The notes under the pieces were generated by a model. It ran no database searches. It worked only from the letters and a program-made list of their open reading frames with translations, and had not been told where the DNA came from. From the NCBI GenBank assembly GCA_028716705.1, contig JAQUPI010000014.1, positions 1 through 36,527 of the forward strand: DNA of 36,527 nucleotides, written 5' to 3'. Origin of the DNA: Candidatus Omnitrophota bacterium (GTDB lineage: Bacteria; Omnitrophota; Gorgyraeia; Gygaellales; Profunditerraquicolaceae). The position numbers were made by a program, and so were the translations under genes. Each line of letters starts with the position of its first letter. The first letter of the stretch is position 1. Positions 9,723 to 25,372 of the stretch are shown here, piece after piece.

Positions 9723-10337
9723 TTATTCTGATTGCGGGACAAAGACTTTCGATTCTAACGCGCTGACCCGTTCTTCCAAGGCCTGGTTCTTTATTTTCAA
9801 TTCTTTAATGGCGTTTAACATCGTCCAGAGGATCGGGTCGCTGTCTATTACCAGGTATCCTTCGCTGTTTTCCCTGACCGCCTCCGGCAAAACACTTGCC
9901 ACTTCCTGCGCTATAAAGCCGATGTGTTCTTTCGAGGGATCGGCTCCGGCAATGTTGTTCTGTTTATACCGGTACCGGACAGGCTTAAGCTCCATGATCT
10001 TGTCCAAGCCGTAGCCGAAATCCCCGACCGCCTCTTTGAGCCTGGCATCCGACAAAACCCCCCAGGTAACGGCGCCGGTCTTATCGGCTGTATTGCTGTT
10101 CACCGCCAAAGAGCCGTTTACGTATAATTTGTAAACTCCCGGGGCTGCCGTCCCTACGCCGACTTTTCCCGCGGCCGCGGTTGCCAGATAAGTATTGCCC
10201 GTTGAGGTTAATTCATTGTAGCTTCCGTATGGCGAGGGGTAATATGTGGTAATGACCATTTCTTCGCAGAAGGCGGGAAAAAATAAAGCCGGCAAAAAAG
10301 AAAAGACGGCTAGAAGAACGGCGGTTTTCTTGCTCAT
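9723..10337 (-). CDS. Secreted short stalk protein with C-terminal S74-type intramolecular chaperone (CIMCD) domain
   Basis: Signal peptide MSKKTAVLLAVFSFLPALFFPAFC; VITTYYPSPYGSYNEL; LSDARLKEAVGDFGYGLDKIMELKPVRYRYK...HIGFIAQEVASVLPEAV; C-terminal coiled coil. Confidence 0.85.
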   Translation of the reverse strand: MSKKTAVLLAVFSFLPALFFPAFCEEMVITTYYPSPYGSYNELTSTGNTYLATAAAGKVGVGTAAPGVYKLYVNGSLAVNSNTADKTGAVTWGVLSDARLKEAVGDFGYGLDKIMELKPVRYRYKQNNIAGADPSKEHIGFIAQEVASVLPEAVRENSEGYLVIDSDPILWTMLNAIKELKIKNQALEERVSALESKVFVPQSE

Positions 10338-10394: not shown

Positions 10395-11669
10395 TTACAA
10401 CAAAGCCGCTTCAATGCAATCATTTGTTATCTTCTTTAATTTTACTTTTATGAGCTGGTTTTTCAGTTCTTTCGCGGAGCCTGATCTGACCTTGAGATAA
10501 TTGCCGGTATACCCCTCCCATAATTTATTGTCGGACTTGTGCCGCCTTTCAAAAAGTACCTCAACGGGCTTGTTTAAGAATTGTTTCGCGTACTTAAAAG
10601 CGCATTTTTCCGCCACAACCTTAAGGCGCGAGATCCTCGCGCTGATCGCCCGGCCGTTGATCTGGCCCTTTAAACAGGACGCGAAGGTGCCCGGTCTTCT
10701 GCTGTAAGGGAATACGTGCACCCGCAACGGCGCGATCCTCCTGACCAGATTTACCGTATTTTCAAAATTCCTTTCAGTCTCTCCGGGAAACCCGACCATA
10801 ACGTCGGTGGTTACCGCTATTTTCGGGATATTTTTTTTGACTTGCCTAATGAGCGCCAGGTAATCTTCTGAACGGTAGCGGCGGTTCATTTTTCTTAGTA
10901 TCTCGTTGTCGCCGCTCTGAATAGGGATATGCAGGTGCCGGCAAAGTTTTTTTGACAGGGCCATCTTCCTGATCAGGCGCGCTTTAACGTCTCCGGCTTC
11001 TATGGAGCTCAGCCTTATGCGCAATAGCCCTTCGATCTTTTCGAGCGCGCCTATTACGTCTATGAGATCGATCTTCCTGGAAAGGTCCCTCCCGTAAGCC
11101 CCTAGGCAAATACCGCACAATACTATTTCCTTAAAACCTTTTTTTACCAGCTGGCATGCCTCCCTCTTGATCTCGTTTAAAGGGCGGCTGCGCGAGCGGC
11201 CCCTGGCTAAAGGCACCTTACAGTAAGAACAGAAGTTGTCGCAGCCGTCCTGTATTTTCAAAAAAGCCCGGGTATGGCCCTGAAAACCGCGGATCATTCC
11301 CTTATCCTCTTTATTTCCGCAGCCCCGGCTTAAAAAATCAAGGATCCTGCCCTTATCCTGGTTTTTAATTATGTGCGTTACGCCGGTGATCCCAGCGATC
11401 TCTTCGCCGTTTAGCTGCGCGTAGCAGCCGGTAACGATAATTTTCGCCCGGGGGTTCTCGCGAATGGCCCGGCGGACCGCATGGCGTGATTTGCCGTCTG
11501 CGGTTGCCGTTACCGTGCAGGTATTTACGACATAGATATCCGCCTTGCAGCCGTTTAATATCTCTTTGTAATTACGGCGCAGGAACTGTTCTCTTATGCT
11601 TTGGGTATCGTACTGGTTTACCTTGCAGCCTAATGTGATGAATTTAACTGTTTCCATACTGAGGGTCAT
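10395..11669 (-). CDS. mtaB: tRNA (N6-L-threonylcarbamoyladenosine(37)-C2)-methylthiotransferase MtaB
   Basis: UPF0004 KFITLGCKVNQYDTQ; radical SAM DGCDNFCSYCKVPLARGRSRSR; TRAM-like C-terminus. Start may be the internal Met at 11657. Confidence 0.9.
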   Translation of the reverse strand: MTLSMETVKFITLGCKVNQYDTQSIREQFLRRNYKEILNGCKADIYVVNTCTVTATADGKSRHAVRRAIRENPRAKIIVTGCYAQLNGEEIAGITGVTHIIKNQDKGRILDFLSRGCGNKEDKGMIRGFQGHTRAFLKIQDGCDNFCSYCKVPLARGRSRSRPLNEIKREACQLVKKGFKEIVLCGICLGAYGRDLSRKIDLIDVIGALEKIEGLLRIRLSSIEAGDVKARLIRKMALSKKLCRHLHIPIQSGDNEILRKMNRRYRSEDYLALIRQVKKNIPKIAVTTDVMVGFPGETERNFENTVNLVRRIAPLRVHVFPYSRRPGTFASCLKGQINGRAISARISRLKVVAEKCAFKYAKQFLNKPVEVLFERRHKSDNKLWEGYTGNYLKVRSGSAKELKNQLIKVKLKKITNDCIEAALL

Positions 11670-12390
11670 AATAAAACCGGATAAACGCCGCTGCCGCGGA
11701 GGCGGCTGTATCCACGCGTAAGACCAATTCTCCCAATGAAACCGGGATGAATCCCGCCTTTTGAGAAGCCCGGACCTCCCCGGGGGTGAAATCGCCCTCC
11801 GGACCGATCAATACCAAAACGCTCTTCGGTTTTATTTTCTCCAGGGCGCATTTCAACCCTATCCTGTTCCCGGAAAGAGTGGGGATCAGCTTCAAGTCGA
11901 ACCCTGCCGCCTCCGTCAATAATTCGCCTAATTTCTTTACCGTGTCTACCACAGGCAGGACATTCCTTTGGCTCTGGAGGCTGGCGCTAAAGGCGATCTT
12001 CTCCCAGCGCTTTTGTTTCATATATTTCTTTTCCCTGCTCAATTTCACGACCACGCGCTCGGTTTCCAATGGGATGATCCGGCTGACACCCAGCTGCGTC
12101 AGCTTGTCGATGATATCATCCATCCTCGGCCCCTTGGGGATAGCGCACCCGACGGATATTTTTACCGCGGGGGGCGGGACATTACGCTTACTCAATATAT
12201 TAAAAACCATGCCCTTGGAAGACACCCCTTCAAGCGAGCAAAGATACTCATTCCCTTTTCCGTCGGATATCGCCACATTTTCATTTTCTTTCAACCGCAG
12301 GACATCCCTCGCGTGATGCACCTGCTCTTTATCGTCGATGCTTATTTTGGAAACCGAAATATCCCCGGAATGGCAAAATAGACGGTGCAT
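11644..12390 (-). CDS. rsmE: 16S rRNA (uracil(1498)-N(3))-methyltransferase RsmE
   Basis: MHRLFCHSGDI...HHARDVLRLKENENVAISDGKG...LIGPEGDFTPGEV...LGELVLRVDTAASAA; SPOUT trefoil motifs. Confidence 0.95.
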   Translation of the reverse strand: MHRLFCHSGDISVSKISIDDKEQVHHARDVLRLKENENVAISDGKGNEYLCSLEGVSSKGMVFNILSKRNVPPPAVKISVGCAIPKGPRMDDIIDKLTQLGVSRIIPLETERVVVKLSREKKYMKQKRWEKIAFSASLQSQRNVLPVVDTVKKLGELLTEAAGFDLKLIPTLSGNRIGLKCALEKIKPKSVLVLIGPEGDFTPGEVRASQKAGFIPVSLGELVLRVDTAASAAAAFIRFYYDPQYGNS

Positions 12391-13044
12391 TTAAAAAGCC
12401 CTCGAGATCAAATGGACGCCCAAGAGAACGATAATACACCCGCAGGCGCGCTTGAACGCCCGGTAATAAACCGTACTCTTATTTTCCAGCCACCGGGGGA
12501 TCAACCCGGCTAGGACAACCAGCAGTATCAAAGGCGAGATGAACGTGCCTATGCCAAAACAAACAGAATAAACCAGGCTGGAAAACCAGTTTTGTGAGAT
12601 CATACCTAAATAGGAAAGGACCGATAAAAGCGGGGCGCAAGGCAGAAGGCCGATGACCACTCCCGCGGCGATGACGGTTTTCTTGTCGCGGTCCAATATA
12701 CTTTCTCTTAAAAATCGGCAAAACTTAAAGTCCAGGGTTTTACCTAAGGCCATTAATGCCCCGGTGGCGGCTATAAAGGCGCCTCCCGCCGCGAGGACGT
12801 ACTTGTGCGCGCTGCCCAGGAACCCTTCAACCGCGAATTTACTTAATAAAAAAACCGCGACGCCCAGGCACGCGTAAATGAAGATCCTTGCCAGGGAAAA
12901 TAACAGGTAAACGCCGATCGCCGCCTTAGGGCCCTTTTTCATTCCCGCGGCGTAAGTTATAAGGAATGGGCCGCAGGATGCGGCGCAGGGGCCTGAACCA
13001 AAGAATAGGCCTGTGATAAACAGGCTGAAGGAAATACCCAGCAT
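12391..13044 (-). CDS. CcdA/DsbD_2-like (TauE/SafE superfamily-like) polytopic membrane protein with two conserved-type Cys motifs
   Basis: MLGISFSLFITGLFFGSGPCAASCGPFLITYAAG...GLLPCAPLLSVLSYLG...; about six hydrophobic segments. Start set to internal Met just after the upstream stop (ORF 12391..13176). Confidence 0.75.
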   Translation of the reverse strand: MLGISFSLFITGLFFGSGPCAASCGPFLITYAAGMKKGPKAAIGVYLLFSLARIFIYACLGVAVFLLSKFAVEGFLGSAHKYVLAAGGAFIAATGALMALGKTLDFKFCRFLRESILDRDKKTVIAAGVVIGLLPCAPLLSVLSYLGMISQNWFSSLVYSVCFGIGTFISPLILLVVLAGLIPRWLENKSTVYYRAFKRACGCIIVLLGVHLISRAF

Positions 13045-13046
13045 GG

Positions 13047-14507
13047 TTACAATTCCTTTTCCGAAAATACTTCGGCGGTAAAAATGTATATTTCGGTGGA
13101 TTTTTCCTTCCAGGCATTGCGGGACAAGCCCGCTTTCTGGCTGCAAAGTTCGGAAAGAAAATCTTCCTTCGACCATTTCGTTTCTACCGCTACCTGCGGA
13201 AGAAAAACGCCGCTGTTAAATCCGGACCTGACCAGGACTCCATGGGTTCCCATGATTATCTCATCCACCGAATCGACCTTCTTCAAAGGAGAAAGCACGG
13301 AAATCTCGATCTCCACGTCCTCCAATTCATTTTGCGTCAACGGAGAAAAACGGGGGTCATTTAATGCCGCCTCAACCGCCATATCCCTTACCGTAAAGCA
13401 AAGAGGTTGCCGGCCGATGAGGCTGCCTATGCATCCCCGCAGGTTACCCTGTTTATGCAAGGTGACGAAAGAGCCCATTTCTTTATTTAAAAGCGGGTCG
13501 ATGTCCGAAAGTTTACACATTTGCCCCGTATTTAAATAATTTTCGATGGAATTCCGCGCGATCATAAGCAATCTTTTTTTCTGATCTTTATTCAGCATAA
13601 ATATCCCCCTATCCGCGGTTAAGGCACAACTGGAGTATCCCACCGTCCAGGTCCCTTTGGTTTTCCTGCCGGTTACTTCGGCCGAATTGGTATGGCGCAA
13701 GATATACAGCCGGTCGCATCCCAGATCCTTGGCCATGATCAGCGTTGTTACCGCGGCAACCCCTCCGCACAGCTGCAGCCGGTTTTCTTCTAAGCCTTCA
13801 TAGAGCCCCGGCGCGTCCATTTTTTCCAGGTAAGAGAGGGTCAGGCCGTCGATCAGATCCGCCTGGTCGTGATCGTAACCGTGGTACATATCGGTTGAGG
13901 CGATCACGAGTACGTCTTTACGCCCTCCTATAGCCTCTTTCAACAAGCCGGCTAATCTTTGGCAGGCGGCGAGGCTGGCGTTGCCCGTGACAATGGGAAC
14001 GATTTTGATCCCGGGAAAAACCTTCTGCAAAAAAGGAAGCTGGACCTCGACTGAATGTTCTTTCTCAAAAGCAGCCGGCTCAAAATAGATATCCTTATCT
14101 TTATAAAGCAGTTTTTCCGCGAGATCCTTATCAATTTCCAGCTCGCCCAGCGGCGTCCGGAATGACCCTTGCGGGTATATTGACACTCCCCTGAAACCCA
14201 GATGGTGAGACGGCCCGATGACAACGGCAGTCTTGTAAGGCCTGCCCTTGACCAGCTTATAGCCAAAAGCCGCCGCCTGCCCTGAGAAAGCGTAACCGGC
14301 GTGAGGACAGATCAAAGCCGTAATATCGGCTTCCACAGGCCGCGGGTCCGCGCTGTCCAAGAAATTATCGATTTCCCTGGATAATTCCCGCGGATCATCC
14401 GGATAAAAGGCGCCGGCGACATTGGGTTCTTTTACTTCTTGAGCGCTAAGGTTACAAGCGTAAAGAAAAAAAAGCAAAGAAATTAAATTACCGCCAAATA
14501 CCCGCAA
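13047..14507 (-). CDS. AmmeMemoRadiSam system: Memo-like (protein B) - AMMECR1 (protein A) fusion, with N-terminal signal-like sequence
   Basis: Memo half: VAGAFYPDDPRELSREI, CPHAGYAFSGQAAAFGY, VIGPSHHLGFRGVS; AMMECR1 half: GSFVTLHKQGNLRGCIGS...ALNDPRFSPLTQNELEDVEIEISVLSPL. Starts with TTG preceded by GGAG, overlapping the radical SAM stop. Confidence 0.92.
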   Translation of the reverse strand: MRVFGGNLISLLFFLYACNLSAQEVKEPNVAGAFYPDDPRELSREIDNFLDSADPRPVEADITALICPHAGYAFSGQAAAFGYKLVKGRPYKTAVVIGPSHHLGFRGVSIYPQGSFRTPLGELEIDKDLAEKLLYKDKDIYFEPAAFEKEHSVEVQLPFLQKVFPGIKIVPIVTGNASLAACQRLAGLLKEAIGGRKDVLVIASTDMYHGYDHDQADLIDGLTLSYLEKMDAPGLYEGLEENRLQLCGGVAAVTTLIMAKDLGCDRLYILRHTNSAEVTGRKTKGTWTVGYSSCALTADRGIFMLNKDQKKRLLMIARNSIENYLNTGQMCKLSDIDPLLNKEMGSFVTLHKQGNLRGCIGSLIGRQPLCFTVRDMAVEAALNDPRFSPLTQNELEDVEIEISVLSPLKKVDSVDEIIMGTHGVLVRSGFNSGVFLPQVAVETKWSKEDFLSELCSQKAGLSRNAWKEKSTEIYIFTAEVFSEKEL

Positions 14508-15600
14508 TGCTTTCTCCGCAAAATTTGCATTTTCCGCCGGTTAGGTCATTCGAAAGTATTGTGTAGCCGACCCGTTTTACCACGATCCCGTTGCACCTAG
14601 GGCAATATGTATTCTCCGCCGGGTTTCCTCCCAGATTGCCGATATACACGTATTTCAGGCCGCGGTCCAGAGCTATCTGCCTTGCCTTGTTCAGGGTTTC
14701 GACCGGTGTCGGGTTGATCGAAGTAAGCTTATGCACCGGGAAAGCCCTGGAAAAATGCAAAGGCGTATCCGCCCCCAAATTCTCTTTTATCCAAAGGCAC
14801 ATCTTCCCTATTATTTCCGGATCATCGTTATAACCGGATATGACAAGGTTCGTGATCTCTAAATGAACGCCTTCCTCCCTTAATATCTTCAGGGTCCTGA
14901 GCACCGGCTCCAGCGTGCCTTCGGACATCCTGGCGTAATAATCGTCGCTGAAACCTTTAAGGTCGATGTTGGCCGCGTCTAAATATTTTGCCAGCTGCCT
15001 TAAGGGCTCCTCATTTATATAACCGGCCGAATGCATAATATTTTTTATGCCTTTTCGCCTGGCCGCCTTGGCGGTTTCAAGCATATATTCATAGAAGATA
15101 GTCGGCTCGGTATAGGTATAGGCGATGGTCGGGCATCCCGATGCTTCTATTTGCGCGATCACTTCTTCCGGCTCCGCGTAAACGTATCGCAGCTCTTCGG
15201 GAAGCCGTTGCGATATCTCCCAGTTCTGGCAGAATTTACACCGTAAATTACATCCAGCGGTGGCGATGGAAAAAGCGGTTGTCCCGGGCAAAAAATGGAA
15301 CAACGGCTTCTTTTCAATAGGGTCTATATGGACGGCCACCGGTTTGGCGTAAACCAGGGAATACAATACTCCGTCGCGGTTTTTCCTTACCCCGCAGAAC
15401 CCGCGCCTGCCTTCGGCTAAAACACATTTCCGGGGGCATAACCCGCATTGTACGGCCTTTCCTTCCAGCTTTTCATAATAAAGGGCTTCCTTGAGCCCCT
15501 CCGGAGCGGGGACCGCGGTTAAGGCGGGCAAATAAATACTGGCGCAGATCAACACCGACAAAAAGAATAAACCCGCGGATAATCTTACCAGGTTTTTCAT
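14488..15600 (-). CDS. AmmeMemoRadiSam system radical SAM enzyme, with N-terminal signal/TM-like segment
   Basis: QCGLCPRKCVLAEGRRGFCGVR; CX3CX2C in ATAGCNLRCKFCQNWEISQ; C-terminal Zn-ribbon-like CPRCNG...CKFCGESI; N-term MKNLVRLSAGLFFLSVLICASIYLPALTA. Confidence 0.93.
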   Translation of the reverse strand: MKNLVRLSAGLFFLSVLICASIYLPALTAVPAPEGLKEALYYEKLEGKAVQCGLCPRKCVLAEGRRGFCGVRKNRDGVLYSLVYAKPVAVHIDPIEKKPLFHFLPGTTAFSIATAGCNLRCKFCQNWEISQRLPEELRYVYAEPEEVIAQIEASGCPTIAYTYTEPTIFYEYMLETAKAARRKGIKNIMHSAGYINEEPLRQLAKYLDAANIDLKGFSDDYYARMSEGTLEPVLRTLKILREEGVHLEITNLVISGYNDDPEIIGKMCLWIKENLGADTPLHFSRAFPVHKLTSINPTPVETLNKARQIALDRGLKYVYIGNLGGNPAENTYCPRCNGIVVKRVGYTILSNDLTGGKCKFCGESIAGIWR

Positions 15601-15646
15601 ATTATTCTACGCGTGGTTTGCCGCTCTTGAGAGGCTGGAGGATAAG

Positions 15647-15719
15647 TGGAGCAGAGGAGGATCGAACTCCCGGCCTTCGCGATGCGAACGCGACGCTCTC
15701 CCAGCTGAGCTACTGCCCC
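15647..15719 (-). tRNA. tRNA-Ala (anticodon CGC)
   Basis: Minus strand GGGGCAG TA GCTC AGCTGGGA GAGC G TCGCG TTCGCAT CGCGA AGGCC GGGAG TTCGATC CTCCT CTGCTCC A; full cloverleaf, G3:U70 alanine identity pair, loop TT-CGC-AT; no encoded CCA. Confidence 0.95.
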
Positions 15720-15841: not shown

Positions 15842-16417
15842 TTAATTAGTGGAAACGAACGGCATAGAGATGCGATTTCTCAGGGAAAGGACTGGATTTT
15901 CAGGGGAACCGCAGGCATTCGGGGTCTCGTCGGGATCCCAACAGGTGGTCAATTGAACCTGTAAAAAATTATCGGCCTGGTCATAATCGGCTGAAAAAGA
16001 AAAAACCTTGCGGCTGATCACCTCGTAAGAACCCGGGTAAGCGGCGTAGTAACGCATCTCTTTATCCTCATCGTCAAATTCATAAGCGGTCCAACGGTCG
16101 CCCTGCGTCGCCCTTTTTCCGTCGCCCGCGGAAGAACCGTCAACGGCGAGGTCAATATAGGCCTTGACCCTGCGGTTGGAATCTTCAATGACGATAGCGC
16201 TGTTATCGGCGTCTCCAACGGCCCGGTTGATCCGGCTTGCCATGTCTTCTAAAATATAAAAAGCGTCGTTTTGTAAGCTTATTTTGCGGTCGGAACTAAG
16301 CAGATGGTAATGGCTGTAGATTTCGATGCTGGAAATGCCTATGATGATAACGGCGACAATGGTCGCGGCCAGTAATAATTCCATCAGCGTCAATCCCCGG
16401 TTTTTGATGCGTCTCAT
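15842..16417 (-). CDS. Type II/IV minor pseudopilin with class III prepilin signal
   Basis: MRRIKNRGLTLMELLLAATIVAVIIIGISSIEIYSHYHL; G/LTLMEL prepilin cleavage pattern. Confidence 0.85.
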   Translation of the reverse strand: MRRIKNRGLTLMELLLAATIVAVIIIGISSIEIYSHYHLLSSDRKISLQNDAFYILEDMASRINRAVGDADNSAIVIEDSNRRVKAYIDLAVDGSSAGDGKRATQGDRWTAYEFDDEDKEMRYYAAYPGSYEVISRKVFSFSADYDQADNFLQVQLTTCWDPDETPNACGSPENPVLSLRNRISMPFVSTN

Positions 16418-16418
16418 T

Positions 16419-16799
16419 TTAAACCGCGGGCTGCTCTGTCCAAGATATCCTTAATCTGACCTTGATCAGAGAAGTAGCCGCGAAACCCGGCGTGCGCTCA
16501 TACGTCGGCGTAAAAGTCATGCCGTCTATTTCCTGGGCGCCCGGGCATCCGGAGCCTGCGCTTAAACAATTGCTGCCCCAGAGGTCCTGCCTTACGTCCA
16601 TCTGTAAAGGCGCGAGAAAGAACCTGCCTAATTCCACCGACTGGACCCGCGTGCGCGTTCCCAAAAGATGCTTCCTTCCGGCCAGAAAAACGCCTGAAAG
16701 GCCCAAGGTGACAAGGGACATAATGAGGCTGGCGACTAAGATTTCGGTTAAGGTGAGCGCTTGGTTACGGGCAGCTTTCATTGGGGGAGGGCTCTTCAC
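16419..16799 (-). CDS. Minor pseudopilin with prepilin N-terminus
   Basis: NQALTLTEILVASLIMSLVTLGLSGVFLAGR; start possibly the internal Met (MKAARNQ..., 16781). Confidence 0.8.
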   Translation of the reverse strand: MKSPPPMKAARNQALTLTEILVASLIMSLVTLGLSGVFLAGRKHLLGTRTRVQSVELGRFFLAPLQMDVRQDLWGSNCLSAGSGCPGAQEIDGMTFTPTYERTPGFAATSLIKVRLRISWTEQPAV

Positions 16800-17202
16800 C
16801 GCTGAAGACCATTGTATATACGCAGCCTGAATAAGCTCCGCCCGTTCTTGAGGCGGTAGCGCTTGAATCGGTTGAACTTACCTCGTAATCCCAATTCCTG
16901 GACCCCGCTTCGGGTATGGCAAGCCTGAGATAATCATTTATCTGCCCTATATCGTTTTCTGAACCGGCGCCGACGGGGAAGTAAGCGTTCGCTTCCAGGC
17001 GGTATATTTTCTCCGCGGCCGTGATAAGCTTAAGGTTGGCGATAGCCTCTCTTCCTATGGCGCGCTCTTTGGCTTTGTTGTACTGCGGCAAGGCGATAGC
17101 CGTTAAGATACCGACGATCAGAACGACTAATAACAGTTCCATCAGGTTGAACCCCCGCCTGTTTTTAAGGATACCTTCCTCCTTGTCTGCCGCTATGGAC
17201 AA
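16765..17202 (-). CDS. Type IV pilin/pseudopilin
   Basis: NRRGFNLMELLLVVLIVGILTAIALPQYNKAKERAIGREAIANLKLITAAEKIYR. Confidence 0.9.
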   Translation of the reverse strand: MSIAADKEEGILKNRRGFNLMELLLVVLIVGILTAIALPQYNKAKERAIGREAIANLKLITAAEKIYRLEANAYFPVGAGSENDIGQINDYLRLAIPEAGSRNWDYEVSSTDSSATASRTGGAYSGCVYTMVFSGEEPSPNESCP

Positions 17203-17600
17203 CTGGGATTACATATATCCGCGCCGCAGGACGCGCGTTTGGAACTTTGAAAGCACATACCGTAACTCTTCCTCGTGCCGCATCCCGCCCCCGGGCAGCT
17301 TCTCGCGGCCTGGGCGTATCCGGAGCTGGCGTCGGCGGAGGGAACGCTGAAAGTAAAATTCGAACTGGAAGGCGCGCTTTCAAATATATCTAAATCAGTC
17401 AACGTGGTAGTGTAGGCGCTGTTTTCCATGTAATACCTGTTTTCGGAGGCGGAAATCTCCGCTAACATGGAATAAGCTTCCGCGGCCCGCGCGCTTTCGG
17501 GAGCCTGAGCGTAATTAGCGATAGCTACCAGCACCAAAAGCCCGATCACGACCACGACGACGATCAATTCTATGAATGTGAAAGCCGGACTTTTCCTCAA
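17193..17600 (-). CDS. Type IV pilin/pseudopilin with Cys-rich C-terminus
   Basis: SPAFTFIELIVVVVVIGLLVLVAIANYAQAPESARAAEAYSML...; C-terminal RSCPGAGCGTRKSYGMCFQSSKRASCGADICNPSCP. Confidence 0.88.
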   Translation of the reverse strand: MRKSPAFTFIELIVVVVVIGLLVLVAIANYAQAPESARAAEAYSMLAEISASENRYYMENSAYTTTLTDLDIFESAPSSSNFTFSVPSADASSGYAQAARSCPGAGCGTRKSYGMCFQSSKRASCGADICNPSCP

Positions 17601-17640
17601 CTGAACCTCTGATTTATTTCTAAATTATAATCGGAACCGG

Positions 17641-18036
17641 CTAATATGAACTAATGGTACCCGACTGGTAATCGATACGCCAGTTGCTTACACCGCTGCC
17701 TGCCGTACCGCTCTTCGCGGCCTGTCCCCTGCCGGCGGCTCCATCCGAAGTAAAAGTAAAATCCGCGACTGTAGGCGTCCGGAAATTCACGTCATTAGTA
17801 CCATCATTGTCTAGATCCACGGCTATGTCCACCGGGTCAGCGGCATCTGTCGGCCATGAGCCGTTAAGGCTTTGATAAGCGAACGCGGCTTTCCTCATTT
17901 CGCCTAAGACCGCCTTTGCCTGGGAATTCTTGGCGTTAGCTATGGCCTTCGTGTATTGGCCTATGCCCACTGTTGCCAATAAGCCTATGATGATTACTAC
18001 GATGATCAGTTCCAACAGCGTAAAACCTTTTCTCAT
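17641..18036 (-). CDS. Type IV pilin / GspG-like major pseudopilin
   Basis: MRKGFTLLELIIVVIIIGLLATVGIGQYTKAIANAKNSQAKAVLGEMRKAAFAYQ; canonical G/FTLLE; good SD (GGAGG). Confidence 0.92.
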   Translation of the reverse strand: MRKGFTLLELIIVVIIIGLLATVGIGQYTKAIANAKNSQAKAVLGEMRKAAFAYQSLNGSWPTDAADPVDIAVDLDNDGTNDVNFRTPTVADFTFTSDGAAGRGQAAKSGTAGSGVSNWRIDYQSGTISSY

Positions 18037-18157
18037 GATCCCTCCTTTTTGCGTATATTTAGCTGAAGCGTGATTTTTATATCTTTTTATGCGGCTTTCT
18101 ATGGTTACACCTCCTTTTTATTATATTTAAGATAACTGTTGAGGTCAAATCTTTTCT

Positions 18158-19399
18158 TTAGCCTGCCGCGCCTAATGACGCTATCTGGAATATCGGCAAA
18201 AACATGCCGATTACCATTATTCCTATGACCGCGCCCATGAATACGAGCATGATCGGCTCGAACATGGAAGTAAAGCGGGACAAAAATGTCTCGGTATATT
18301 CTTCGTAGAACGTGTTTATACGCTTAAGCATCTGCGGCAGTTCCCCGATCTCTTCCCCGATAGTGATCATTTGTATCACCATCGGCTCGAAAAATTTACT
18401 TTTGTCAAGGCTGGAGTTCAGGGGTTTACCCTGGCGCACGTCGTCCTTGACCTTACGGATCAACTCCGCCATGACGGAATTGTTCACGCTATGCTCAGTT
18501 ATTTCCAGGGAGTATAAAAGGGGGACGCCGCTCTCGATCAGTGTCGACATTTCCGAAGAGAACCTTTCCACGACGAGCGAGCGGAAGAGTTCACCGAACA
18601 AAGGAAGGCGGAATTGTAATTGCTCGTACCTTTTCCTGCCCTCTTTTGTGCGCACGTACCTTTTGAACAGGAAAAACAGCACAGTGCCGGCGCCTAAAAC
18701 GGCCCATATGCTCTGCCTTACAAAATTGCTGATTTGTATGAGCGCCCGGGTCATAAGAGGCAGCTGGACATTAAACCCTTTGAACAGCTCCGCGAAAGTG
18801 GGAATGATCTTTACGGTCAGAAAAAAAAGCGCGCCCAACCCGACAAACATTAACATCGCCGGATAAACCAGGGCCGAGATTATCTTCCTTTTGAAAGCCG
18901 CCTTTTTCTCCAGATACGTCGCCAGGCGGCTTAAAACTACCGCCAAATTACCGCTTGCCTCGCCGCTTTCCACCAGGTTGATCCATAGATCGGAGAATAC
19001 CCTCGGGAATCTTGACATGGCTTCGTGGAAACTTAAACCAGCTTCCATATGTTTCTGCAGTTCAACCAGCGTGTTATAAAATTTACGGCTGTATACCTGC
19101 TTTGAGATTATGTTCAAACTCTTTAATATAGTTATACCGGCGCCCAACAGGGTAGCTAACTGCCTGGCAAAGACTACCAGGTCGTCCCCGCTGACCCCCC
19201 GGCGCTTGAACTTGCGCTGTTTGCCAGCGGCCCTGGGCAAAGTTGGCGGCCCCTCTTCCCTGGCCTCGGGAAGGACGTTCACTACGGTTAAATTCCTCAG
19301 TTGCAGCCTTCCGATCAACTCATCGGAAGACGGGGCCTCTTCGCTTCCCGTGATCTTTACACCTCTGCTATCCCTGGCAATGTAAGCGAATTTCGGCAT
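18158..19399 (-). CDS. Type II secretion / type IV pilus inner membrane platform protein (GspF/PilC)
   Basis: 413 aa, two GspF domains (FARQLATLLGAGITILKSLNIIS..., FSSEMSTLIESGVPLLYSLEIT), three TMs. Confidence 0.95.
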   Translation of the reverse strand: MPKFAYIARDSRGVKITGSEEAPSSDELIGRLQLRNLTVVNVLPEAREEGPPTLPRAAGKQRKFKRRGVSGDDLVVFARQLATLLGAGITILKSLNIISKQVYSRKFYNTLVELQKHMEAGLSFHEAMSRFPRVFSDLWINLVESGEASGNLAVVLSRLATYLEKKAAFKRKIISALVYPAMLMFVGLGALFFLTVKIIPTFAELFKGFNVQLPLMTRALIQISNFVRQSIWAVLGAGTVLFFLFKRYVRTKEGRKRYEQLQFRLPLFGELFRSLVVERFSSEMSTLIESGVPLLYSLEITEHSVNNSVMAELIRKVKDDVRQGKPLNSSLDKSKFFEPMVIQMITIGEEIGELPQMLKRINTFYEEYTETFLSRFTSMFEPIMLVFMGAVIGIMVIGMFLPIFQIASLGAAG

Positions 19400-21118
19400 T
19401 TAGTCCGCACCTATGGTGATGGATAGCGCCTCTTCCAAAGAAGTGATCCCGTCTTCGACTTTTTTCAAGCCGGATTCGTAAAGCGTGACCATTCCGCTTT
19501 CTTTAGCGGCATCTCTTATCTTCTGAAAAGAAACGCCTTGACTGACCAGTTCTCGCAGCGCTTCATTGATTACCATTACCTCGGAAATACAGGTCCTGCC
19601 CCGGTACCCCAGCTGCCCGCATTTCGCGCAGCCCTTTGGCCTGTAGATCAGGTCCGCTTTTATGGCTATCCCGCCGGTAAGTTCGGGCGTCGGCTCATAA
19701 GCCTCCTTGCAATCCGGGCATAATTTCCTGAGCAGGCGCTGAGCTACTACCATTAACAAGGAAGGCGCGACCATGTAAGGGGCGATGCCGATGTCGATAA
19801 GTCGGCTCACGGCTGAAGGGGCGTCGTTAGTATGCAAAGTGCTCAAAACCAAATGGCCGGTTAAGGCCGCGCGTATGCAGATCTCGGCGGTCTCCAGGTC
19901 TCTGGTCTCTCCTACCAGCATTATATCCGGGTCCTGTCTTAAGAAACTGCGCAGGGCATTTGCGAAAGTAAGCCCTATTTCAGGTTTGACCTGGACCTGA
20001 TTGACGCTGTCCAGTTTGTATTCTACCGGGTCCTCCACGGTTATGATATTCTTGGTCGGGCTTTTTATCTCGCTTAACACGGCGTATAAAGTTGTCGTCT
20101 TTCCGCTGCCGGTAGGCCCTGTCAAGAGGACAAGCCCATAAGGCATATTTATAACACGCCGGATATGTTCGAGTTGCTTGGCCTCAAAACCCAGCCTGTC
20201 CAGATCCAAGACTACGGAGCTCCTGTCCAATATCCTTAAAACAACTTTTTCCCCGTATATCGTGGGGATAGTAGAGACTCTCAGGTCTATCGGCCGGTCT
20301 TCGAGCCTGACCAGGAATGCCCCGTCCTGCGGAAGCCGTTTTTCGGCGATATCCAATTTGCTCAGGATCTTTATACGGGAGATGATCGGCAGATGCAACT
20401 GCCTCGCCGGAGGGGGTATTTCATATAATTTACCGTCTATCCGGTATCTTAAGGATATCCTCTCCTTGAACGGCTCGATATGTATATCGGATGCCCTCTC
20501 GTCGATGGCCTGGCGTATGATCAGGTCGACCAGTTTTACGACCGGCGCTTCTTCCGCGCGGGCGATCAGCTTATCCAGGCTCAACTCCTGGTCGCCTTCG
20601 GCTTCCTCTCCCGCCGCAACCACGGGAACGTTCACATAAGAAGCCTCCACCGCCTCTTCGAACATTTTGGACTTACCGTAAAAATTCTCGATCGCCTTTA
20701 GGATGTCCGACCTTGTCGCGATCACCGGGTTTATCTCGCAGGCGGTAAGCTTTCTTAGATTATCTATGAGTATAAGGTCCAATGGATCGGCCATGGCTAC
20801 GGTGAGCGACCTCAGGGTGCGCGAAAGAGGGAGTACCGTATATCTTAACGCGAAATCTTTAGGGACCAGTTGTTCCAGATTCTGGTCGGGCGCGGGCTTT
20901 AACTCCGTGCCCAGGTTAAAATAGGGGATATTCAGCTGTTTCCCCAGGATAGCTACAGCCTGCTCTTCCCTGAGGATCCCCATCTTGACGAGTATCTCGC
21001 CTAACCTGCCCCCATCCTGCCTTTGCACGTTGATCGCTTTCTCAAGCTGTGCCTGGGTAATAATGCCTTCTTTGATGAGGAGCTCCCCTAATCTCAAGTA
21101 TTTTTCTTTAGCGCACAT
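19400..21118 (-). CDS. Type II/IV secretion ATPase (GspE/PilB)
   Basis: N-terminal GspEII domain; ASDIHIEPF, Walker A GPTGSGKTTTLYAVL, Walker B DPDIMLVGETRD, CxxC pairs CPDCKE / CAKCGQ. Confidence 0.97.
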   Translation of the reverse strand: MCAKEKYLRLGELLIKEGIITQAQLEKAINVQRQDGGRLGEILVKMGILREEQAVAILGKQLNIPYFNLGTELKPAPDQNLEQLVPKDFALRYTVLPLSRTLRSLTVAMADPLDLILIDNLRKLTACEINPVIATRSDILKAIENFYGKSKMFEEAVEASYVNVPVVAAGEEAEGDQELSLDKLIARAEEAPVVKLVDLIIRQAIDERASDIHIEPFKERISLRYRIDGKLYEIPPPARQLHLPIISRIKILSKLDIAEKRLPQDGAFLVRLEDRPIDLRVSTIPTIYGEKVVLRILDRSSVVLDLDRLGFEAKQLEHIRRVINMPYGLVLLTGPTGSGKTTTLYAVLSEIKSPTKNIITVEDPVEYKLDSVNQVQVKPEIGLTFANALRSFLRQDPDIMLVGETRDLETAEICIRAALTGHLVLSTLHTNDAPSAVSRLIDIGIAPYMVAPSLLMVVAQRLLRKLCPDCKEAYEPTPELTGGIAIKADLIYRPKGCAKCGQLGYRGRTCISEVMVINEALRELVSQGVSFQKIRDAAKESGMVTLYESGLKKVEDGITSLEEALSITIGAD

Positions 21119-21122
21119 ATTC

Positions 21123-22622
21123 CTATTTTATTTTCTCAAAGCTGTTTAGGCTGCTTTCTATGGCTGACATCCGTTCAGGCGGCGCCATGGCTATCCGCTC
21201 TTCTTTTATTTCTGGCGCGCTTGTCTGGTAAAATCCCAGGCCGTTTTCTTTGACAATACGCGGGGTGATGAAAACTATCAGTTCGCGCTCCCTGTCTTTT
21301 GACTTGTCCTTATGCCTGAAAAGGAACCCCGCCAGCGGGATGTCACCAAGGATGGGTATCTTAGATACATCCTGGCTAAACTCATTGCGGATCAACCCCC
21401 CCAGGAGCACAGTCTGGTTATCCCTGACCCTGACCACTGATTTGGTGCTCCGCGTCTCCGGGTCCCTGAATTGAAAAGATTGACCGTCGGAGGTTAAGAC
21501 ATTTCCTTGTGTAGCCTCGCTGACTTCGGGGTAAATGAACATGGTGATCTCTCCCGTTTCAATATTAGCTTGCGGAGTGATCCTTAGCAACACGCCTGTT
21601 TCCTCGCGTTCCGGCTGAGACTGGGTAGTGCCTGAAGTCGCTTCCGTAGTAGTCTCTATGCCGATGGATTCTTTCGTAGTGATCTTTATCTCCGCCGTCT
21701 CATTATTCAAGGTAAGGAGCCGGGGCCTGGCCAGGAATTTCGTATCCGTGCGGGTACGCAGGAAATCCAAGGTATTGGCAAAGGTGCGGCCAAGGACAAC
21801 GGCGCCGGCCGTAGAGGAACTGATATCACGCGCCCCCCTGAGGGCGACATCCCCCAGAAAGAACTTTGAACCGGGCCTGGTCCCCGGGAGGATCACGGTA
21901 AAGGGGTTAGCGCCCAGGTCAAACCCCATTCGATCTATAAGGTTCTTGCTCACGTCCAGCATCTCGACTTCAAGCATTATTTGCGGCGAAGCTACGTCCA
22001 AAGAAGCGATCAATTTTTCAATGACCGGGAGCCGGCTGGGGATATCCATAACGATGAGGCTGTTTGTGCGGAAATCTTCGATTACTGATCCGGCGGAAGA
22101 AAGATTTTTCTTTATGGCCTCGGTAAGCCCTATGGTCCTTGCCGAACCTCCTCCGCCTGCCGCGCCTAATTCCCCTTCAGCGCTGCTTCCGGCGCTGCCG
22201 CCTCCTCCAATATAGGTAGATACCTCCTGTATCAGAGAAGATGAGGACACGGTAGCGTATTTAAGGTTAAATACCCTTGTAACCGTTTCTATCGGCATTT
22301 TGCCCCAATCCTTCACCACAAAGATCTTCGCGTTTTCATCCAGCTCGTAAGTAAGGTTATTGGCTATAAATAGCTTATCCATCGCCTCCTTCAAAGGGAC
22401 TTTATCCAGGAAAAGGGTTACCTTGCGGTCCTGCACCCCTTCGGACGCGATGAAATTCAGGCCTGACTGGATGGAAAAGATCTTAAGAATATCCCTGAGG
22501 CTGGCGTCCTGGAAATCCATGGATATGACAGCGCTGGGCGGCTGGTCCGCGGCAGGCAAATCCATCGGCAATAAAGAAAAAATGATCATTAAAGATATAA
22601 AAACGTTAGGATGGCTGCGCAT
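21123..22622 (-). CDS. Secretin (GspD/PilQ family)
   Basis: Signal peptide, STN-like/secretin N domains, C-terminal secretin region TVLLGGLIRNEFSQDVSKIPILGDIPLAGFLFRHKDKSKDRERELIVFITPRIV; Gly/Ser-rich linker. Confidence 0.95.
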   Translation of the reverse strand: MRSHPNVFISLMIIFSLLPMDLPAADQPPSAVISMDFQDASLRDILKIFSIQSGLNFIASEGVQDRKVTLFLDKVPLKEAMDKLFIANNLTYELDENAKIFVVKDWGKMPIETVTRVFNLKYATVSSSSLIQEVSTYIGGGGSAGSSAEGELGAAGGGGSARTIGLTEAIKKNLSSAGSVIEDFRTNSLIVMDIPSRLPVIEKLIASLDVASPQIMLEVEMLDVSKNLIDRMGFDLGANPFTVILPGTRPGSKFFLGDVALRGARDISSSTAGAVVLGRTFANTLDFLRTRTDTKFLARPRLLTLNNETAEIKITTKESIGIETTTEATSGTTQSQPEREETGVLLRITPQANIETGEITMFIYPEVSEATQGNVLTSDGQSFQFRDPETRSTKSVVRVRDNQTVLLGGLIRNEFSQDVSKIPILGDIPLAGFLFRHKDKSKDRERELIVFITPRIVKENGLGFYQTSAPEIKEERIAMAPPERMSAIESSLNSFEKIK

Positions 22623-22642
22623 TTTTCCTCCCTCTAGGTTTT

Positions 22643-23107
22643 TTATTTAGTTTGGGGGCTTGGCGGAGAAACTAACCCTTGCCCCTGCCCTTCTTTTTTA
22701 CTATCTTGCGCGCTTAATGGTGAAACTTTCATTAAGGTATATTGCTGGTTATCGAAAATTACGGTTATGCCGTCTCTATTAATACCTGAAATTTTTACGC
22801 CCTGGATCTCGTCTCCAACCTTTAAGACCTTGTTATTTACGATCGCCTGAGGTATCTTCGTGCCCCAGACTACACCTTGAATTATAAGCTCGGGTAAGGG
22901 CTTTGTCTCCTTAACCGCTTCGGGTTTGCGTATTTCCTGCTTTTCCCGCTCAAAAGGGTCCCGCAGTTTTTCGGACATGTACTCGAATTTACCCGCCTGC
23001 TCCCCGGCAGCCGCGCTTTGCGCCGCTTCTTGCGCTGAAGATATCGCCGATACAAAGAAAAGGCCGGCAAAAAAGATGCCTATAATGTAACCCTTCGGCC
23101 TGGCCAT
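22643..23107 (-). CDS. PilP/GspB-GspC-like pilus assembly periplasmic protein
   Basis: Signal peptide; LRDPFE motif; LPELIIQGVVWGTKIPQAIVNNKVLKVGDEIQGVKISGINRDGITVIFDNQQYTL. Confidence 0.7.
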   Translation of the reverse strand: MARPKGYIIGIFFAGLFFVSAISSAQEAAQSAAAGEQAGKFEYMSEKLRDPFEREKQEIRKPEAVKETKPLPELIIQGVVWGTKIPQAIVNNKVLKVGDEIQGVKISGINRDGITVIFDNQQYTLMKVSPLSAQDSKKEGQGQGLVSPPSPQTK

Positions 23108-23109
23108 GG

Positions 23110-23637
23110 CTAACTCCTGAATGAAATTACGCTTATAGTCAAATTAACCGTCAGCGCCGCCTTACTTTGATCCGCGCCGGTCTTTTGCCTCTGGATATCT
23201 ACTGTATCAATAGCGTAAAATTCGCGCTGATTTTCTACACCGCTTATAAATCTGCCCGCGTCATGGTAACTATCGGCTTCCAGGATAAAAGCAAGCCGGT
23301 ACTTGTTATAAAGGGGCCCTGCTTCTTCGGGCTGCGGCTTGACGGAGACCACCCGTAATTTTGACGCTTCCGCCATATCCGTAAGCGCTTCCATAGCTGA
23401 AGCCAGGTCACTGCTGAAGAGGCCTTTATAGGAACCGATCTTTTTCTCAAGGCGGTTCACCTCGGTCAGGAGCCCGTTCCTCTTCGCCTCTTCTTCCTTT
23501 TGAAAGCGCAGCGATTCAAATCTTTGGGAATAATGCTTGAAGGTGACGGAGGCCGCGATCAAAGTAAGCGCCGCTATGGCTATGCTTATTGACCGTTTTT
23601 TCGCCATGGGAAACAGGTCCGTTAATATTATTTTCAT
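23110..23637 (-). CDS. PilO/GspM-like assembly protein
   Basis: One TM then coiled coil and ferredoxin-like region (LTDMAEASKLRVVSVKPQP...YRLAFILEADSYHDAGRFISGVE); position between PilMN and PilP. Confidence 0.7.
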   Translation of the reverse strand: MKIILTDLFPMAKKRSISIAIAALTLIAASVTFKHYSQRFESLRFQKEEEAKRNGLLTEVNRLEKKIGSYKGLFSSDLASAMEALTDMAEASKLRVVSVKPQPEEAGPLYNKYRLAFILEADSYHDAGRFISGVENQREFYAIDTVDIQRQKTGADQSKAALTVNLTISVISFRS

Positions 23638-23640
23638 GCC

Positions 23641-25176
23641 TTATTTACCCTTTTTATTACCAGCCGATCCGCAGAAGATCACAAAATAAGTGGAGATTAT
23701 TTCCTCCGATTCCTGCGTTCCCGAGGAAACAAGCCCGACCTCCTGAAAATATTTAGCGATAACCGGGTTTTCTTTCAGCCGGGTAAGGAAAATATTGATC
23801 AATTCACGCTGCTTATCGATGTTGCCGGAGTAAGCGCTTCCGTTCAGGGTAAGCTCTTTCTTTTCTCCCGCCTTTTTAAAAGATACCGTGTCCAGATTCA
23901 TGCCCTTTAAGACGACCCTCGGTATGGAATCAAAAATCGGCGTAAGAACTACCCTGTCTTTTAAGATCCCTTCCATAGTCCGCGCTTTTATATCATATCC
24001 GGACTTTATTTTTAAGAGTTCTTCGTAACTTAATCCGCTTATAGCCCGGGGGGCTTCCGGCCTCATGCTCACTATCCCTTTTATTTCATTCTCTAAAGGG
24101 GCCATCCTGCGGGATGAGAACGCGAAAACAGATATATATACCAGTAGGCATACCGCGGCGGTAATCAGTTCCGGCTTGTAATTGGCGATCAGTGACGGGG
24201 AAACCGGCAGTTCTTTCGCTTCCTTTTTCGTGACTCTTTCTTTGGCCGAAAGCAGGTTTATCTTGACCCCGGTATTTATCATGGATAAAGATCCGGAGAA
24301 GCTCTTTACAAAGGGCAGGGAAAACGGTATAGGCCTGTTGATATGCTTATTGATGTCTATGAAGTTAACGCTCAAACCTAAATCTTTGACGAACCCTTCC
24401 AATTCGGCCCGGTAGTTGGGGTTAGTGATAAAGAATATTTTAAGGATATTCTTCCCTGGGAATTTACGGTCGTAATAATCGAGGGATATCTGGATCTCCC
24501 TTTTTAACTTTTCCAATAGCGTGTTGCGCTCGGATTCCTCAACTTTAGCCTGTTCTTCATACCCTCCCATCAAACTTATATCCCGGCTGAAAAGAGGAAA
24601 ACCGCCCTCCAGGACGACGAAATTGGCTTCGTCTTCTTTCAGCAGGTCTATATTTACAACGGCTATAATATCTTTTTCCCTTATATTGGCTAATTTAAGG
24701 AGCCTTAAAATACTGAACGCAGAGTATTCTACCGATCTGGGCCTGATCCCAAGCTGCCTCAGGACCTCAAGATAATTATTCAGCGCCTCTTTTTTTATCC
24801 CTACGAACAAAACGCGCGTCTTTTGGACGGTTTTATCCAGCTTATATTCGAAATCCGAGAACAATTCTTCTACTTTAAAGGGGATATATTTCTTCGCTTC
24901 AAAGTTTACGGCGGAGTTCAATTCCTGGGCCGGTAAAATGGGCATCTCAAATGTCCTTACGATCAGGTCTTTCCCGGAAATACTGACTATTGCCTCTGCC
25001 GGTTCTATGCCGTTTTGCGTCATCGCTTCCTTGATCATGGCGGCAAGCTTGATGTGCCCGGGGACCTTTTCTTCCAGGGAATAGGCGGGTTGCGCCAGGT
25101 GAAAATACTTGCCCGGGCTTTTGCCTTTGCTTTCTACGACAGAAACAACTTGAGGGCCGAAATAAATACCGAGCAT
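23641..25176 (-). CDS. PilM-PilN fusion pilus assembly protein
   Basis: PilM-like actin-fold half (MLGIYFGPQVVSVVESKG...FEMPILPAQELNSAVNFEAKKYIPFKVEEL), then TM (ELITAAVCLLVYISVFAF) and PilN-like C-terminus. Start set to internal Met adjoining the HTH gene stop. Confidence 0.8.
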   Translation of the reverse strand: MLGIYFGPQVVSVVESKGKSPGKYFHLAQPAYSLEEKVPGHIKLAAMIKEAMTQNGIEPAEAIVSISGKDLIVRTFEMPILPAQELNSAVNFEAKKYIPFKVEELFSDFEYKLDKTVQKTRVLFVGIKKEALNNYLEVLRQLGIRPRSVEYSAFSILRLLKLANIREKDIIAVVNIDLLKEDEANFVVLEGGFPLFSRDISLMGGYEEQAKVEESERNTLLEKLKREIQISLDYYDRKFPGKNILKIFFITNPNYRAELEGFVKDLGLSVNFIDINKHINRPIPFSLPFVKSFSGSLSMINTGVKINLLSAKERVTKKEAKELPVSPSLIANYKPELITAAVCLLVYISVFAFSSRRMAPLENEIKGIVSMRPEAPRAISGLSYEELLKIKSGYDIKARTMEGILKDRVVLTPIFDSIPRVVLKGMNLDTVSFKKAGEKKELTLNGSAYSGNIDKQRELINIFLTRLKENPVIAKYFQEVGLVSSGTQESEEIISTYFVIFCGSAGNKKGK

Positions 25177-25177
25177 A

Positions 25178-25372
25178 TTATGGGGTTTCTCCGCCAGTTT
25201 TAGACACGCGCCTTCTGCTGCGCAGCCAGGAATCGATGTCCCTGCGGTCAAACCTCCAGACCCCTCCGACCTTGATCCCCGTGATCTTTCCCTGGTTTAG
25301 CCAGTTATAGATCGTTTGCTTTTTGAGTTTTAGATAATCCGCCAGTTCATCGATATCAATAAGTCTTGACAT
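25178..25372 (-). CDS. Excisionase-family (HTH_17/MerR-like) helix-turn-helix protein
   Basis: MSRLIDIDELADYLKLKKQTIYNWLNQGKITGIKVGGVWRFDRRDIDSWL; first gene of the pilus operon. Confidence 0.9.
   Translation of the reverse strand: MSRLIDIDELADYLKLKKQTIYNWLNQGKITGIKVGGVWRFDRRDIDSWLRSRRRVSKTGGETP

Follow-up and report, generated by a model that had tools for sequence, protein, structure and literature searches.

Gene content of the cassette

The stretch of DNA examined here, referred to as the window, is a 36,527-nucleotide sequence (contig JAQUPI010000014.1, positions 1 to 36,527) from a Candidatus Omnitrophota bacterium. Its minus strand carries an AmmeMemoRadiSam cassette, in which a radical S-adenosylmethionine (SAM) enzyme, hereafter rSAM, is encoded next to a fusion of the Memo and AMMECR1 domains and is followed by a gene for a polytopic membrane protein. 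Labels G, C, and L denote genomes, contigs, and loci, and the window is G000:C14. The features are as follows (aa, amino acids):

14488..15600, minus strand: rSAM (AmmeMemoSam_rS), 370 aa, with a leader of the general secretory (Sec) type; TIGR04337 at 373 bits (cut-off 220) and PF04055; placed in the exported clade in trees
15514..15600, minus strand: rSAM leader, residues 1-29, MKNLVRLSAGLFFLSVLICASIYLPALTA; homologous leaders in relatives
14514..14517, minus strand: GGAG Shine-Dalgarno-like element, 6 nucleotides ahead of the fusion TTG
13047..14507, minus strand: Memo-AMMECR1 fusion, 486 aa, TTG start, leader; TIGR04336 at 246 bits and TIGR04335 at 186 bits; PF01875 and PF01871
14439..14507, minus strand: fusion leader, residues 1-23, MRVFGGNLISLLFFLYACNLSAQ; the TTG is kept at the same place in close relatives
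12391..13044, minus strand: DsbD_2/CcdA-like polytopic membrane protein, 217 aa; PF13386 at 72.8 bits (cut-off 24.9)

The assignment to AmmeMemoRadiSam follows from a TIGR04337 rSAM with an intact CxxxCxxC motif and from the adjacent coding of Memo and AMMECR1. The genes are tightly packed, as the initial annotation of this DNA had described. The rSAM and fusion genes overlap by 20 bp, and the ATG of the DsbD_2 gene lies at 13044, 2 bp past the fusion stop. A 261-aa open reading frame for the membrane gene was rejected because it over-extends into the fusion. The well-spaced GGAG that had been cited in support of the fusion's TTG start is also present.

Leaders on the rSAM and the fusion

Do the rSAM and the fusion carry genuine export signals? 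Leaders were called from hydropathy, charge, cleavage motif, and comparison among homologues. Both proteins have a charged n-region, a hydrophobic core, and a cleavage site of small residues, conserved in orthologues, as in Sec-exported proteins. The rSAM leader has a net charge of +2 ahead of its core and a cleavage-like end, LTA^VPA. The rSAM reading frame begins two codons past a stop, and the only other in-frame starts before the first iron-sulfur (Fe-S) cysteine are TTG14, GTG16, TTG17, and TTG24. A start shifted past the hydrophobic segment was rejected because all of these alternatives sit inside the leader.

In the 98 relative genomes examined, strong leaders are found at the same position, while the leader sequence itself has diverged. 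Leaders are present on 62 of 65 Memo-AMMECR1 fusions and, if two rSAMs read by eye (L067 and L161) are included, on 64 of the 68 rSAM rows that Omnitrophota relatives contribute to the exported clade. Among the paralogues of the leaderless clade, there is none with such a leader. The window genome itself encodes a leaderless Memo (C8) and a leaderless TIGR04337 rSAM (C21), which serve as internal controls because they belong to the same families in the same genome. Judged from these sequences, the leaders proposed in the initial annotation are real, and export of both proteins is well supported as a prediction. Furthermore, the Sec-type rSAM leaders show a mean net charge of +1.95 before the core and of -0.04 over the 15 residues after it. 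This asymmetry fits an N-in/C-out orientation and favors export. An AxA-like site occurs in 98% of these leaders by a loose rule and in 30% by a strict rule. In one locus (L088, G082:C15, 3253-5803, minus strand), rSAM, Memo, and AMMECR1 form a single chain of ~850 aa under one Sec-type leader, which is direct evidence that the three domains share one compartment. The leader-bearing rSAMs fall into one large clade, which contains several switches between Sec and Tat and a nested loss of the leader.

Two export routes in one orthologous group

Many rSAM orthologues carry twin-arginine translocation (Tat) signals instead of Sec leaders, with variants such as SRRQFLK, SRRDFLK, TRRQFVK, SRREFLK, and TRKEFLK. 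In several loci, tatC (PF00902, 213 bits) is found directly upstream of the rSAM gene (L157, L158, and L160) or nearby (L161, L163, and L179). These Tat-type orthologues provide independent evidence for export, and the use of two export routes within one orthologous group makes a chance hydrophobic N-terminus very unlikely. A tandem pair of Tat-leader rSAM paralogues follows tatC directly (L157 and L158).

TatC was found in 15 of the 17 relative genomes with a Tat-leader rSAM versus 6 of the ~44 with a Sec leader, and all six of the latter also have DsbD_2. Genomes of the window type mostly lack TatC and have Sec leaders. The window genome (G000, 93.6% complete) yielded no TatC match, and its rSAM leader has no RR motif; neither the SRRxFLK leader nor the TatC expected for Tat export was found there.

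A genome-contig scan across phyla extended the set of exported rSAMs. The Sec and Tat types together occur in at least 17 named phyla, although some of these labels may be wrong because nearly all of the cross-phylum rows come from metagenome-assembled genomes (MAGs). The phyla include Bacteroidota, Planctomycetota, Acidobacteriota, Zixiibacteriota, Latescibacterota, Myxococcota, Ignavibacteriota, Chloroflexota, Elusimicrobiota, Lentisphaerota, and Auribacterota. A leader-bearing Memo-AMMECR1, sometimes with a lipobox, is found together with many of these rSAMs. Mangrovibacterium marinum (L225) is an example of a cultured bacterium with the exported type. The exported arrangement is broader than the initial annotation proposed.

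The DsbD_2 membrane protein and its linkage to the rSAM

In CcdA/DsbD-type carriers, each half opens with a helix that holds conserved cysteines, a pattern also seen in the window protein. Its two cysteine sites, GPCAASCGP (residues 18-26) and LLPCAPLL (residues 133-140), had been likened to the Cys-Pro sites of CcdA, a likeness with which the PF13386 match and three invariant cysteines agree:

12973..12987, minus strand: first-helix CxxxC (C20 and C24); invariant in 14 homologues; helix break here in the predicted model
12637..12639, minus strand: C136 of LLPCAPLL, at the start of the second half; invariant in 14 homologues; helix break here in the predicted model

Homologues of the window type are present in 43 of the 98 relatives, and by a manual tally ~38 of the 43 adjoin the fusion or an exported rSAM, or lie at a contig end. 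Where the fusion is located elsewhere, DsbD_2 stays with the rSAM (L151, L152, L153, L154, and L156), and DsbD_2 is again found beside an exported rSAM in Elusimicrobiota, Lentisphaerota, and Auribacterota. The dedicated membrane partner suggested at the outset holds up in this conserved linkage, which is compatible with thiols or electrons as well as with metal as the cargo.

The presence of DsbD_2 tends to follow the export type. In the combined set, it accompanies 41 of 58 Sec-type versus 2 of 65 Tat/KR-type rSAM rows (Fisher p ~2e-16, kinship ignored), where presence was scored in the stretch retrieved round each rSAM, sometimes on a truncated contig. In this comparison, L182 and L204, which have hydrophobic MRK leaders, were counted as Sec by hand, and several weak-core Tat/KR leaders were assigned by eye. 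The association is strong by count. Its causal reading is provisional because the test ignores kinship and independent switches are few. The recurrence of the leader and membrane-partner arrangement across many bacterial phyla suggests that a delicate Fe-S radical chemistry may be carried out beyond the cytoplasm.

Conserved residues of the rSAM and Memo

The residues expected for catalysis and metal binding are retained. Conservation was scored across 123 exported rSAM rows as well as 17 leaderless and 9 cytosolic ones:

15394..15447, minus strand: rSAM N-terminal cysteine motif (C52, C55, C59, and C69); 100% in all three groups
15229..15252, minus strand: rSAM CxxxCxxC (C117, C121, and C124); intact in 123 of 123 exported relatives
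14518..14604, minus strand: rSAM C-terminal CxxC...CxxC (C333, C336, C358, and C361); 97-99% conserved in exported forms
13632..14429, minus strand: Memo domain (PF01875) with predicted metal ligands H69, H101, and C247
13065..13565, minus strand: AMMECR1 domain (PF01871); PDB relatives 1vaj, 1zq7, and 1wsc

Within the exported rows, the seven cysteines that make up the N-terminal motif and CxxxCxxC thus show 100% conservation. The idea that the Sec type has extra cysteines of its own was rejected, as only C268 is enriched (95% in Sec, 64% in Tat, and 0% in cytosolic rows), which is suggestive at most. The Memo residues H69, H101, and C247 are conserved in 100, 100, and 97% of 103 Memo domains and correspond, by a motif-based assignment, to H49, H81, and C244 of human MEMO1. 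These human residues coordinate Fe and Cu (PMC11081632), and binding of Fe(II) and Cu(I) has been described for Memo proteins (PMC11081632; PMC9477392).

Redox-linked neighbors in relatives

Several relatives place redox modules next to the exported rSAM. In an Auribacterota MAG (L181:1744-3435), a 563-aa DsbD_2-FMN_bind-Fer4_5 fusion ends just upstream of the rSAM. In L169 and L170, a polyferredoxin-like gene, a DsbD_2-like gene, a gene for a membrane spermidine-synthase-like protein, and the rSAM gene form one run, and the polyferredoxin-like gene clusters with the Fer4_5 proteins of L131 and L133. L155 (G062:C41, 96-9277) contains two Sec-leader AmmeMemo rSAMs, a Fer4_5 polyferredoxin, and an rSAM with a lipoprotein-type leader (L252), beside which lie genes for a BadF/HgdC-type activator and HGD-D. 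The latter two are known as low-potential electron devices. A lipoprotein-type rSAM is also seen in G048 (L140:4717-5754), as a second, different type of rSAM that adjoins the same kind of DsbD_2 gene. Together, these arrangements point to electron supply across the membrane.

Of the 73 cross-phylum loci, 43 encode a polytopic membrane protein of ~750 aa with a spermidine-synthase-like domain (PF01564, NF037959-like) beside the exported-clade rSAM or near it (for example, L167:1163-3439 and L151:6159-8561). The window genome has a copy at G000:C34:9804-12020, unlinked to the cassette.

Other genes in the window

The run of genes does not end with DsbD_2. It continues without a gap into two more genes, absent from the initial annotation and probably housekeeping in function, to make a five-gene run. 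The flanking features are:

11644..12390, minus strand: RsmE (16S rRNA m3U1498 methyltransferase); PF04452/TIGR00046; abuts the DsbD_2 stop
10395..11669, minus strand: MtaB (tRNA ms2t6A methylthiotransferase); TIGR01579 at 432 bits; 26-bp overlap with rsmE
15646..15719, minus strand: tRNA-Ala(CGC); upstream of the rSAM gene, ending 45 bp from its ATG

A signal-peptide-like protein with a Peptidase_S74 endosialidase-chaperone domain, best known in phage tail proteins, is encoded at 9723-10337. A type IV pilus/type II secretion cluster at 15842-25251 includes several pilin-like genes, a T2SSE ATPase, and PilM.

A proposed mechanism and its alternatives

How might the cassette work? It probably encodes an extracytoplasmic AmmeMemoRadiSam system, in which a Sec-exported rSAM would be kept reduced, at its thiols or its cluster, by the DsbD_2 protein. 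The rSAM and the fusion would be synthesized with signal peptides and leave the cytoplasm through Sec, as the organism appears to be without Tat, and would act in the periplasm or at the outer face of the cytoplasmic membrane. Because Sec would export the rSAM unfolded, its [4Fe-4S] cluster(s) would have to be acquired outside, and its 11 clustered cysteines would have to stay reduced. As a dedicated partner, the DsbD_2 protein would pass cytoplasmic thiol electrons across the membrane to the exported rSAM, so as to reduce its cysteines or to load or reduce its cluster. Where the rSAM would leave folded through Tat, the DsbD_2 protein is usually absent. Through H69, H101, and C247, the fusion would bind Fe(II) or Cu(I), and it may act with the rSAM on an envelope substrate.

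Several observations weigh against this mechanism. The predicted DsbD_2 model (predicted local distance difference test score, pLDDT, 81) has no significant PDB match (best E 0.08). The tree holds five supported independent Sec/Tat contrasts, of which one or two are informative, all in the direction of the count and none opposing, so that the association with DsbD_2 is not significant after phylogenetic correction. In 17 of the 58 Sec-type rows, the retrieved stretch, in some cases on a truncated contig, contains no DsbD_2, and two Tat-type loci (L131 and L133) do have it; because of these two loci, an absolute rule that Tat means no DsbD_2 was rejected. The window operon showed no thioredoxin-like periplasmic relay, and we know of no source of SAM outside the cytoplasm. 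Finally, a nested clade (L195, L198, L200, L091, L095, L234, and others) has leaderless rSAMs beside leader-bearing fusions. This state is a secondary loss of rSAM export, and the rSAM of this clade may work in the cytoplasm. Export is not universal, then, and the rSAM and the fusion need not always share a compartment.

The same nested clade lends some weight to another model, in which the leader does no more than anchor the rSAM in the membrane and the rSAM works at the cytoplasmic face or before export, leaving the fusion alone outside. SAM, reductant, and Fe-S assembly are all cytoplasmic, which also agrees with this model. However, a C-out orientation is expected from the positive-inside bias, many of the leaders have AxA-like cleavage sites, a Tat signal with a linked tatC would be useless to a cytoplasmic enzyme, and L088 has all three domains under one leader. 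We regard the anchor model as improbable. A little less improbable, but still unlikely, is an exported system in which the DsbD_2 protein transports a metal (Fe, Cu, or Ni) or another small substrate across the membrane and so loads Memo or the Fe-S cluster instead of supplying electrons. Many PF13386 relatives carry a transporter annotation, and metal binding by Memo proteins agrees with such a role. Yet the three invariant cysteines are positioned as in CcdA-type thiol carriers, one DsbD_2 relative has FMN_bind/Fer4_5 redox modules in the same chain, the DsbD_2 of L140 partners a second rSAM without Memo, and reduction or maturation accounts better for the Sec/Tat pattern. Could the gene order simply be an inherited housekeeping neighborhood, with DsbD_2 functionally unlinked? 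The rsmE-mtaB genes follow in most relatives, and rsmE is present in 51 of 64 fusion loci, but DsbD_2 accompanies the rSAM alone at other genomic places (L151-L154 and L156), pairs with it in other phyla (L217, L235, and L181), occurs on either side of it, and lies beside another exported rSAM type. This explanation is highly improbable.

An exported cassette with the DsbD_2 protein as its putative reductant is the best account for the window. A wider version is more tentative and somewhat doubtful: many phyla might perform radical SAM chemistry outside the membrane with an rSAM that leaves either through Tat in folded form or through Sec in unfolded form, the latter with DsbD_2 as a dedicated thiol/electron carrier and sometimes with NapH/FMN_bind electron modules. 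If true, these two export solutions would require [4Fe-4S] maturation, SAM, and low-potential electrons as reductant beyond the membrane.

Comparison with known systems

To our knowledge, no radical SAM enzyme has been established as acting outside the cytoplasm, and our literature search found no paper on one. No description of an exported AmmeMemoRadiSam form was found in the literature searched, by which novelty is judged here; Burroughs et al. 2019, which reportedly deals with Memo-AMMECR1 systems and lay outside that search, may mention one. Like known AmmeMemoRadiSam systems (TIGR04335/04336/04337), the window has the three domains adjacent and above cut-offs with catalytic motifs kept, but it differs by its leaders and dedicated membrane protein. 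Memo and AMMECR1, which have long lacked an assigned function and both have human relatives, would gain a testable compartment and redox partners.

The window membrane protein, of the PF13386 DsbD_2 branch, shares with CcdA/DsbD carriers a polytopic form, the helix-1 CxxxC, and a PC opening the second half, and its predicted model breaks helices at both cysteine sites. However, those carriers serve cytochrome c maturation or DsbC/G, whereas the window protein is linked to rSAM and Memo-AMMECR1 and has no periplasmic thioredoxin domain nearby. NosR/NapH-type membrane polyferredoxins lie beside the exported rSAM in L131, L133, L169, L170, and L155 but are absent from the window operon; their Fer4_5 and FMN_bind modules are fused to DsbD_2 in L181. 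Tat-exported Fe-S proteins of the NrfC/HybA type exist, and window orthologues elsewhere share their SRRxFLK leaders and tatC neighbors. The window rSAM differs in its Sec leader, which implies cluster assembly after export. The rSAM orthologues thus offer a natural comparison of Sec and Tat export for one Fe-S enzyme.

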